Shown here piece by piece: positions 1 through 3,135 of a stretch of 34,636 nucleotides of DNA. Source of the stretch: an uncultured Gammaproteobacteria bacterium. GTDB taxonomy: Bacteria > Pseudomonadota > Gammaproteobacteria > SZUA-140. The stretch spans positions 1 to 34,636 of the forward strand of contig CALZHD010000013.1 of the NCBI GenBank assembly GCA_945787155.1, in the 5' to 3' direction. The position numbers and the translations under genes were made by a program. The first letter of the stretch is position 1. Each line of letters starts with the position of its first letter. The notes under the pieces are model-generated. The model did not search any database and had not been told where the DNA came from. It was given only the letters and a program-made list of their open reading frames with translations.

Positions 1-666
1 CTGTGAGTAGAGGATGGCATCATCGGAAGGCTCATCACCGATCAAAAGATACGCGCCCGGTACACGGGTATTTTTAGCGGCGCGACGAAAGGCGTCACCA
101 ATGGTTTCATTGTTGCCGATGAATGGTGCGCCCTGCATCAACATATCGAACATCTCACCCATCGAACCGGTGTAGGTTTTGGCGATACCATCTGAAAACC
201 AGGTGACGGCATCAAGATGCTTGCCGGAGCGGGTGACGATCACTCGCAGAACTGGAATCAAAAAATGTGACGCACCGTGCATCGAGCCGGTGGCATCGAT
301 AACCAGGTGAAGTTCCTTGCCGGGAATCTTTTTCAGCCCTTCGATAAAGATCTCAAAATCCTTACGCCCTTCACCTTCATCGAGACCGGCTGGCTTGAGC
401 ACCTTCTTCATTTGACTTTCGGAATCCATCTTTGCCATTTCATCCAGCTCGCCAAGCAGTCGGTCCATATCTGAACCGGACATATCAAGCTGTTGCTCAA
501 GCTTCGCCACTTTCTCTTTCAGCTTGGGCAACTGATCTTCTTCGGCCACCTTAGAGGTAATCAAAATAGTCACCAGTAAAAATATAAAGGTGGCGAGCAT
601 CAACAGCGCGACGTCCGAGAAACTTTCATGGACGTTGGTATAGGTAAATTTTCGTCGATCTTTCAC
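1..666 (-). CDS. MotB/ExbD-like membrane helix fused to von Willebrand A domain (C-terminus cut by window edge)
   Basis: The open frame runs from a GTG at 666 to the left edge without a stop, giving 222 visible residues. The N-terminus (SFSDVALLMLATFIFLLV, residues 15-32) is a single membrane helix with an aspartate, D18, at its start. That is where MotB and ExbD carry the proton-binding Asp. Residues 43-85 are charged and heptad-like, probably a coiled coil. A vWA domain follows, with strand ELHLVIDATGSM holding a MIDAS-type DxTxS (D144, T146, S148), a later NNET threonine and LIGDEPSDD. The gene starts 16 bases after the stop of the MotA/TolQ-like gene, so the two are almost certainly co-transcribed. 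I infer a proton-driven stator unit whose periplasmic part is a vWA domain instead of a peptidoglycan-binding domain. No strong ribosome binding site is seen. The missing C-terminus could hold further domains. Confidence 0.8.
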   Translation of the reverse strand, partial: MKDRRKFTYTNVHESFSDVALLMLATFIFLLVTILITSKVAEEDQLPKLKEKVAKLEQQLDMSGSDMDRLLGELDEMAKMDSESQMKKVLKPAGLDEGEGRKDFEIFIEGLKKIPGKELHLVIDATGSMHGASHFLIPVLRVIVTRSGKHLDAVTWFSDGIAKTYTGSMGEMFDMLMQGAPFIGNNETIGDAFRRAAKNTRVPGAYLLIGDEPSDDAILYSQ

Positions 667-682
667 GTGAGTGTGTTGTTAA

Positions 683-1693
683 CTATTCTTTGGGAGGACG
701 CGGGCGAGGTCTGAAGCGCAACAGGTCCTTGAGACGCTGCCAGAAGGTACGATTCAGATTCTGCATCAGGCGTGCCTCCTGGCGCATCAACATATAGCAC
801 TGGCGATTCATCTCGATGCTTTCAAGCAATGAGGTGCGCTCTTCCTGCGACAGGCCGCGCAGGTTTTCAACCTCCTGACGAAACTCTTCCATCGCCATGC
901 GCGATGCGCCAAAGGCCGACTGCAAGAACTTGACCCGTTCGCCGAGTGATTCCATTTCTGCATCGAGGAATCGAATATCGCGTTCCAGCGAAGGTTTGAA
1001 GTCGGCAGAGCAGTAAACCAGGCAGATGCGCATGGTGCAATCAAACAGCCCTTCGACCCCCTGTTCGGTGATCTGTGCAAAAACACGCAACAAAACGCCG
1101 CCCAGGATCGCGCCCAGCAATGTAGTGTAAAAGGCGGTACCCATGCCGCCCATCGCCTTGCGCAGACCTTGTAGTAGCTGTTCCTGATCATGCCCCAGGG
1201 CATCGAGTGAGCTGGTGAGACCCGTCAGGGTCAACGTGAGTCCCATCACGGTTCCGATCAAACCTAGCGTGATCAGCAGATTACCAGCCACTTCAATCGA
1301 GCGACTCATGCGTTGAAAAGTGGCCAGTTCCACATTGAGCAGCGCTTCAGCATCGGGCTTACTGTTGCTGTCCATCGCCATCTTCAGGGACTGGAAATAG
1401 CGCGCGACGGCACGACTTTCCGAGGTCGTTTCAAAACCGACCAACCCCTTCTCTCTCACATCGGACTCGATCTGTCTGGCCGCTAATGACTCTTTTGTCA
1501 GCGCTATGCTCAATGCGAGACTCGCGGCGAGACCAAACACAAAGAATGCAAGGATAATCCATGTAATGCGGGTCCTATCCTGCTCCAGCATCTCCCCGAT
1601 ACCGGCATCCTGATAGAAACTAAAATAGACGACCGTAGCCGCCAGCGCCCAGATGAACCACAATAGCAACGTGCGATAGGGACGATGCCTCAT
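683..1693 (-). CDS. MotA/TolQ/ExbB-family proton channel protein
   Basis: Inner-membrane channel subunit of the MotA/TolQ/ExbB superfamily. Numbered from the upstream start at 1711, helices lie near residues 13-31, 50-70, 143-165 and 188-212. The last two carry the family core: LGLIGTVMGLTL, then GGMGTAFYTTLLGAILGG. The C-terminal 110 residues are charged and probably coiled coil, in the cytoplasm. I chose ATG 1693 because GGAAGG lies 8 bases upstream. ATG 1711 is in frame, adds six residues and has only a distant GAGG. The next gene downstream encodes a MotB/ExbD-like helix plus vWA domain, so the pair looks like a two-part stator. It is neither classical MotA (flagellar) nor TolQ, since no tolR, tolA or motB with an OmpA domain is present. 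What the motor acts on cannot be told from here. Confidence 0.85.
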   Translation of the reverse strand: MRHRPYRTLLLWFIWALAATVVYFSFYQDAGIGEMLEQDRTRITWIILAFFVFGLAASLALSIALTKESLAARQIESDVREKGLVGFETTSESRAVARYFQSLKMAMDSNSKPDAEALLNVELATFQRMSRSIEVAGNLLITLGLIGTVMGLTLTLTGLTSSLDALGHDQEQLLQGLRKAMGGMGTAFYTTLLGAILGGVLLRVFAQITEQGVEGLFDCTMRICLVYCSADFKPSLERDIRFLDAEMESLGERVKFLQSAFGASRMAMEEFRQEVENLRGLSQEERTSLLESIEMNRQCYMLMRQEARLMQNLNRTFWQRLKDLLRFRPRPRPPKE

Positions 1694-1849
1694 GCTAACA
1701 CCTTCCACCATATCATCGCACGCCTCTGCACAGCAGGATTACTTCCCATCTCCCCCAACCTCATCGTGAACTGACATTATTATTCGTATAAATGGAAATA
1801 TAAATCAGAAAAGCCGACTTGTCTTCTTTAGCAATTGATTATGAGTGCA

Positions 1850-2533
1850 TCATCGACGCAGGAAACGAATCCAGCGCCAGATGTTCAAAAGACTCGACAG
1901 CGAGGCCGCCAGATAGGTCAATGCGCAGGCGCGTAGAATTTTTCTGGCAACGCGCTCTTCAGCTCGAGAGAGGTATTGCCCCGCTTTGATCAACGGCATC
2001 GCCTTGCCAAAGCTGGCATCCCACTCCACTGGCAGCGTCACCAGATGCACCAGCGCGGAAACCCCTAAACTCGCCAGCCCGACTAAAAACATCAGCATGC
2101 CTGCCGAAGGGGCACGTGTCACGCCGACCAGCAGCGGTGCTGCAAACATGGCCAACGAACCCGCCTTTTCCGTGACCTGTGCAATCCGCACCAGCCTGCC
2201 ACGCAACATCAGCTTAGGATCTCCCTCCTTATGCTGAATGGCATGCCCCACTTCGTGCGCTGCGACCGCGACGGCAGTGAGTGACTTACCATCGAAGTTG
2301 GCTTCGCTGAGACGCACGCAGCGATCGGTGGGATCGTAGTGATCACCCAACGCTGTCTTTTCAACCTTAACGGTTTCCAGCCCAGATTTTTTCAACAGAT
2401 GACGGGCAAACTCCGCGCCATTGCCAGGATAGTGCGCCTGATGCTCGCTGTAACGAGAAAGCACCGAACGCGCCCACAGTTGTGGGCCAAAAACCAACGC
2501 TAACACGAGCAACAATAGAATGACCAGATGCAT
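1850..2533 (-). CDS. YugP-like neutral zinc metallopeptidase (membrane)
   Basis: Membrane-bound zinc metallopeptidase of the YugP/Zn_peptidase_2 family (PF04298). The zinc site is HEVGH (residues 93-97 from ATG 2533) within AVAAHEVGHAIQH. Other family marks are the N-terminal anchor helix (about 3-20), two hydrophobic segments at about 125-165, and the VTLPVEWDASFGKA stretch. The length of 227 residues is normal for the family. The first in-frame start at 2536 is a TTG, so the ATG at 2533 is preferred. It lies in a same-strand row, 59 bases after the lipoprotein gene and about 140-156 bases before the channel gene. Its substrate is unknown. It may act on membrane or cell-envelope proteins, and a link to the neighbouring channel genes is only contextual. 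Confidence 0.88.
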   Translation of the reverse strand: MHLVILLLLVLALVFGPQLWARSVLSRYSEHQAHYPGNGAEFARHLLKKSGLETVKVEKTALGDHYDPTDRCVRLSEANFDGKSLTAVAVAAHEVGHAIQHKEGDPKLMLRGRLVRIAQVTEKAGSLAMFAAPLLVGVTRAPSAGMLMFLVGLASLGVSALVHLVTLPVEWDASFGKAMPLIKAGQYLSRAEERVARKILRACALTYLAASLSSLLNIWRWIRFLRR

Positions 2534-2592
2534 CAATTAACATCCAGAAAAAAGGGCAAGCGACTCACAATACGACTAAGGAAAAGGACGAA

Positions 2593-3135
2593 CTAGCCCC
2601 CATCAGCCTGAGAAATCGGTTTCTTCCTGGCAGGGCCAACCGCACGCATAAAGCGACTTTTCTCTTTTGCGGCTGCCAGATCAATCATATGAGGCAAAAA
2701 GAAGACACCACGAAATTCACCGTCAACGGGCTCAATCGAAAGATAATAGGTAGAGCCCGCCTCGAACTCAAAACGCTTTGTCCGCTGCATCTCTTTGAAT
2801 TCACGAAATGGACCTGCATTCGTCAGCGATTTGATCGTGACATCCACCTCACCAGGCTTGAGGTGCACAACGGTATATTCAGACTTAACCAGATTTATCA
2901 GTAGCTCTTTATTCAGCTCCACCGCCAAACGGTTATCTGCCGCCCCCATGTAACGCTCAGTATCAGGTCGAATAAAGTAAACCGCCGCATAATTGCCAGA
3001 CCCCTTCTGAATGAGGGAGTGGTCATCTTCTATCAGCGTTCCCATCGGACCACCCGACAGAGGTGAGCCGGCACATCCAGCAAGCAAAAAGGCCACTATC
3101 AGCAGTAAAGCTGCCATTCCCCTACCCTCTTTCAT
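2593..3135 (-). CDS. DUF2846-like lipoprotein
   Basis: Predicted lipoprotein of 180 residues. The signal sequence has a basic start (KEGR), a hydrophobic stretch and a lipobox LLAG/C with the lipidated Cys at 21. The mature part has the pattern of DUF2846 proteins: YFIRPDTERYMGAA, a strand ending HLKPGEVDVTI, and FEFEAGSTYYLSIE. This suggests a small beta-sandwich anchored in the outer or inner membrane. ATG 3135 keeps the positive n-region and is therefore preferred over the internal ATG at 3117, although that one has GAGGG 7 bases upstream. It is the first gene of the minus-strand row that leads to the zinc protease and the channel pair. The molecular role of the family is not established. 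Confidence 0.75.
   Translation of the reverse strand: MKEGRGMAALLLIVAFLLAGCAGSPLSGGPMGTLIEDDHSLIQKGSGNYAAVYFIRPDTERYMGAADNRLAVELNKELLINLVKSEYTVVHLKPGEVDVTIKSLTNAGPFREFKEMQRTKRFEFEAGSTYYLSIEPVDGEFRGVFFLPHMIDLAAAKEKSRFMRAVGPARKKPISQADGG

Follow-up and report, generated by a model that had tools for sequence, protein, structure and literature searches.

A two-gene locus coding for a MotA/TolQ/ExbB-type channel protein and a single vWA-domain partner, a candidate proton-driven motor of the inner membrane

The known 5:2 motors are either anchored to peptidoglycan or hand their force to TonB or TolA, and to our knowledge every Asp-axle member of the MotA/ExbB superfamily that has been characterised is a force generator. 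We know of no member of the 5:2 superfamily for which a metal-ion grip on a ligand has been shown, of no use of such motors in low-oxygen or nitrogen-oxide respiration, and of no experiments on any motor with a von Willebrand A (vWA) domain.

A design with a vWA partner has nevertheless been predicted from sequence in the form of the TPH-vWA motors, in which a TolQ-like pentamer has a vWA protein for its axle (PMC12204202, Mol Biol Evol 2025, Fig. 4c,d). According to that study membrane-tethered vWA proteins co-occur tightly with tolQ homologues, without tolR or exbD, and carry the axle Asp, which AF3 models of related vWA proteins put within the Thr ring. The vWA genes of this family, for which an Idiomarina sequence was the seed, are found predominantly in heterologous pairs, no function was assigned to them, and the prediction of TolQ-like motors with a dimeric vWA partner is accompanied by no experiment. 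A survey of stators published in the same year (PMC12505986, mBio 2025) does not mention von Willebrand domains. The preliminary description of the locus presented here had suggested that its combination of a stator-like channel with a vWA protein would be a different machine; given the prediction in PMC12204202, the general design of a TolQ-like channel with a vWA axle was already in print.

The locus lies in a window of 34,636 bases (the whole stretch of DNA analysed), which is the beginning of its contig in a genome of 3.19 Mb and 210 contigs. ORF reading of the window placed two genes, A and B, on the minus strand. Gene A (683..1711, minus strand) codes for a MotA/TolQ/ExbB-type channel subunit of 342 aa, identified by Pfam model PF01618, hydropathy and a 26-member alignment; an alternative in-frame ATG is located at 1693, the gene end given in the preliminary description. 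Gene B (1..666, minus strand) codes for the vWA-type stator partner and is cut short by the contig end: of the roughly 260 aa expected from full-length relatives, the window encodes 222. The two genes are separated by exactly 16 bases according to the ORF coordinates (667..682, minus strand), in agreement with the spacing reported before, and in most relatives gaps of -38 to +37 were obtained using the annotated starts. Full-length B proteins of about 260 aa are present in relatives from the same genus and family, among them L029, whose B (260 aa) is 97% identical to that of the window. A search for the missing 38 C-terminal residues in the rest of the genome did not find them, the profile giving one match only. 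Upstream of A the window encodes a membrane zinc metallopeptidase (Zn_peptidase_2, 2e-66; 1850-2536, minus strand) and a DUF2846 lipoprotein-like protein (2593-3135, minus strand); these two genes are kept upstream of A in L031-L033 but in none of the other genera examined.

The A protein matched the Pfam MotA_ExbB model with an E-value of 1.3e-8 and 35.1 bits (cut-off 22.9). Four TM helices were predicted by hydropathy at about residues 14-32, 52-70, 145-163 and 190-208, and the protein ends in a conserved, helical cytoplasmic tail of roughly 125 aa. The TM3-TM4 core, recognised by its conservation (residues 142-212; 1076..1288, minus strand), contains the motifs G-L-I-G-T-V and A-F-Y-T-T-L-L-G, and six of its residues (T148, G153, T154, G157, T197, G200) are invariant in 49 of 49 loci. 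The Thr residues in TM3 and TM4 may line a pore. A PDB profile search with A gave one MotA chain at an E-value of 0.009 plus coiled-coil matches.

The order of elements in B is a basic N-terminus, one membrane helix, a charged coiled coil and a vWA domain of about 145 residues, and a conserved G-x-M-L motif closes the C-terminal domain. The N-terminal membrane helix (residues 12-38; 553..633, minus strand), which follows the basic N-terminus, is MotB/ExbD-like according to hydropathy and hhalign. Hydropathy gave a single TM peak at residues 19-37, the consensus of the relatives reads E-x-F-S-D-x-A-L-L-M-L-x-x-F-I-F-L, and hhalign paired this helix at 97.2% with the same helix of vWA proteins from the heteropair loci described below. 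Asp18 (613..615, minus strand), the putative proton carrier, is Asp at 49/49 loci. Among 27 full-length relatives of B the Pfam models MotB_plug (13/27, best 1.9e-3) and ExbD (5/27) were matched below cut-off. The N-terminus is net positive in nearly all of the 49 loci and Cys is absent after the TM helix in all of them, both of which fit a periplasmic C-terminus of B. A PDB profile search with B returned no vWA chain and only chance matches, mostly coiled coils, and the AlphaFold2 single-chain prediction for the full-length B of L029 plus the window B (few sequences) was uninformative, with a pLDDT of 38.

The invariance of Asp18 also bears on a different role for B, that of a TonB/TolA-like transducer which binds the A ring laterally while an unlinked ExbD or TolR protein forms the true axle. 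Such an arrangement was proposed for vWA transducers with TonB-like topology (PMC12204202), but B carries the axle Asp in its own helix throughout, a linked ExbD/TolR gene was not seen, and the B consensus lacks the SHLS motif, making this role very improbable in our judgement.

The vWA domain of B starts at about residue 114 (1..327, minus strand), its last 38 residues being those missing here. Pfam alone did not call it in the window B, which had no significant match because the domain is divergent and truncated, and the VWA_CoxE model was matched weakly by two of the 27 full-length relatives (best 8e-4). The assignment was made using hhalign with decoy controls: B aligned with 34 vWA domains of related genomes at a probability of 94.5% over 143 columns (score 52.4), with the MIDAS loops and the C-terminal TGG in register. 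As controls, 46 unrelated neighbour families used as decoys reached a best score of 18.8 and a probability of at most 0.7%, the reversed vWA profile scored 14.4, and twenty column-shuffled vWA profiles gave scores of at most 17.0 and probabilities of at most 0.9%. MIDAS loop 1 is the DATGS at residues 124-128 (283..297, minus strand), loop 2 is represented by Thr188 and loop 3 by Asp211; D124, T/S126, S128 and D211 are conserved in 49/49 loci and T188 in 45/49, and E212 is invariant across the 49 loci. On these profile comparisons we regard the vWA assignment as secure. The preliminary description had read the locus as a stator-like pair in which an ExbD/MotB-like helix of B bears the key Asp (D18) and a vWA domain with a MIDAS-type DATGS replaces the OmpA-like or ExbD/TolR domain; the PF01618 match of A, the conserved Asp, the positions of D18 and DATGS, and the hhalign result with its full MIDAS set all bear this out. 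Adhesion, the use it had in mind for the domain, is possibly only one of several.

Four other MotA/ExbB-family genes are present elsewhere in the genome, each with its own partner as determined from sequence and neighbours: TolQ is accompanied by TolR and TolA, one ExbB by ExbD and an MsbA-like gene, a second ExbB lies beside a TonB-like gene, and MotA goes with an OmpA-type MotB. Since these four already have partners, A-B is a fifth motor system with a partner of its own. It shares with ExbBD and TolQR the superfamily of A, a one-TM B with the axle Asp and the two-gene operon, but differs from them in the four predicted TM helices of A (three in ExbBD/TolQR), in a B that ends in a vWA domain instead of the ExbD/TolR fold, and in that no TonB or TolA gene was seen linked to A-B. 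With the flagellar stators MotAB and PomAB it has in common a four-TM A and the Asp axle; unlike these, it has no flagellar neighbours and no OmpA-like peptidoglycan-binding domain, no OmpA match being among the Pfam families listed for 27 members of the B family. A function as flagellar stator was therefore ruled out. Another stator-like pair was encountered in L083, L084 and L085, consisting of a MotA-like protein and a partner with the helix motif P-G-Y/F-V-D-A-L and a long coiled coil. The partner has an OmpA-like C-terminus in L084 and L085 and is truncated in L083, and judged by its neighbours this pair is non-flagellar.

The linkage of A and B was determined among 274 genomes of the class, as the preliminary description had suggested. 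The B profile identified 23 genomes at E<1e-100 and then nothing until about 1e-4, and the A profile identified exactly the same 23 at E<1e-120 plus one further genome (G044) at 7e-25. Homologues of the vWA protein without the channel partner, which would have spoken against a joint machine, were looked for and none occurred. Every locus carrying the family has both genes on one strand with A upstream, and the two are directly adjacent in all loci but L081, where about 310 bases lie between the aligned parts. The distance matrices of A and B are correlated (Mantel r 0.865, 0/2000 permutations), which largely reflects shared descent. The genes next to the pair differ between lineages, and no third gene occurs within five genes of it in more than 10 of the 49 loci. 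Genome G245 harbours two A-B copies 92 kb apart (L175:9310-11156 and L176:9540-11386) that are 99.6% identical over 1847 bp and have unrelated flanks; this stretch coincides with the A-B block and includes nothing beyond it. Two further copies in G178 (L171/L172) are 82% alike over the same extent. These copies suggest that A-B is a cassette which was recently duplicated or underwent gene conversion, and since A-B was duplicated or converted as one block, the two genes represent a complete module.

The pair is present in 27 of 143 relatives and in the majority of genomes from the window's genus and family, and is spread over many gammaproteobacterial families. In a second class of the same phylum it was found in 43 of 78 genomes (1.2-3.1 Mb), with one genus lacking it altogether. 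The number and size of these genomes and the genus without the pair prompted the idea that the pair might have to do with the stalks formed by iron-oxidising Zetaproteobacteria. This is not claimed; the main text of the stalk paper mentions no vWA genes, and MotA/TolQ/ExbB-type genes appear in that main text in one reference title only. No relatives of the pair were found in the plasmid, phage and viral collections.

This distribution is relevant for a Zorya-type role in anti-phage defence, a logic that the preliminary description had raised together with gliding. The core of A is weakly similar to ZorA (best E-value 1.1e-7 for the window protein and 1.8e-8 for a relative), but the matches are mainly over the shared TM3-TM4 core and the A tail is short. 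B has no ZorB match and ends in the vWA domain; among the flanking ORFs that were scanned neither ZorC or ZorD, nor gliding genes, nor a defence context were recognised, and those neighbours that are annotated have housekeeping or respiratory roles. The occurrence in the majority of genomes from the genus and family is also unlike that of an island gene, and plasmid, phage and viral relatives were not found. A role in Zorya-type defence is thus already contradicted and exceedingly improbable.

The pair resembles the TPH-vWA motors: as in these, a TolQ/MotA-like gene is tightly linked to a vWA gene, the axle Asp is in a single TM helix, and no ExbD-type gene was seen in the A-B neighbourhoods. 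The published family was compared by its description and by the heteropair loci of three genomes of the class. These loci (L185:7614-10473, L186 and L187; 3 of 85 genomes of one taxonomic order) consist of A and two different vWA axle genes and match the design of PMC12204202. They were first met as a weak match in G044 and its relatives, with the gene order A, B1, B2; in the three genomes A has 264-278 aa, B1 335-339 aa and B2 342-349 aa, and B1 and B2 are 31% identical in G044, the one compared. By contrast, a single B is present in every A-B locus examined with flanks. This B is shorter (about 260 aa), A has a tail of roughly 125 aa that the heteropair A proteins lack, and in the A tree the heteropair A proteins are placed apart from the single-B group, which itself is supported at 80/95, a value weakened by long branches. 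Since the published vWA genes are said to be predominantly paired, a single B marks a variant and not an exclusion from that family. Compared with these heteropair loci the A-B pair is thus a separate single-B clade, a well-defined and simpler variant of the motors predicted in 2025.

The conserved helical cytoplasmic tail that sets these A proteins apart from their heteropair counterparts could also be read as belonging to a gated proton channel or sensor, in which the vWA domain would sense periplasmic metal, load or a ligand and control proton entry or signal to the cytosol via the tail; the pair also has no evident load or structural partner linked to it. Against this, A-B retains all of the Thr and Asp elements, and the characterised Asp-axle members of the superfamily all generate force. 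We consider a channel or sensor unlikely and a force-generating motor the better description.

What such a motor might act on was approached through its neighbourhoods, many of which have a respiratory flavour that we take as a lead. CcoG-like ferredoxin proteins flank 10 of 49 loci in both classes (a raw count). Further flanking genes code for CcoN-like oxidase subunits, for c-type cytochromes, for Rrf2 regulators accompanied by truncated globins, and for a NirK-like multicopper oxidase. The motor could on this basis energise low-oxygen or nitrogen-oxide respiration by acting on an envelope partner needed for the assembly or supply of a cbb3-type oxidase, a NirK-like enzyme or a haem/copper enzyme, which would be a possible output of the proton motor and not a different machine. 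However, none of these neighbour genes is universal and none is near the pair in the window's own genus, so we regard this output as improbable. The arrangements of the CcoG-like gene, which codes for a 4Fe-4S ferredoxin and is beside the pair in two classes, differ: it is upstream of A in L165, L169, L172 and L175 and downstream of B in L041, L044, L046, L047, L048 and L197. In one gammaproteobacterial lineage a dynamin-family gene is located a few genes upstream of A-B (L044:5071-7143, also L041, L043 and L048).

The explanation we favour, and consider likely, is that A and B together make up a small 5:2 motor of the inner membrane that is driven by protons, with a homodimeric vWA axle that grips an envelope partner via its MIDAS. 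Homology suggests a pentamer:dimer assembly that conducts protons and rotates, and a vWA domain that is periplasmic and binds metal. The A ring would enclose the B dimer, and with a single B gene this axle is expected to be a homodimer. Within the ring, Asp18 of B would be placed beside the Thr residues of A, where it would take up and release protons, and the passage of protons would turn ring and axle relative to each other. The C-terminus of B would reside in the periplasm, with the short coiled coil leading to the vWA domain. The MIDAS metal site may then grip a partner of the cell wall, the periplasm or the outer membrane that is acidic or coordinates metal in some other way; the nature of this partner is a guess, and torque or pull would thereby be applied to it. 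A bolder version, to which we give little credence, is that of a minimal self-contained proton motor whose homodimeric shaft, with two metal-dependent grips, pulls an envelope partner connected with respiration at low oxygen or with nitrogen oxides.

For the superfamily, a vWA axle would mean that the ligand is held through a metal ion and hence by a switchable grip. The single-B form needs two genes only and, because it is also widely spread, would lend itself well to testing the prediction made in 2025.
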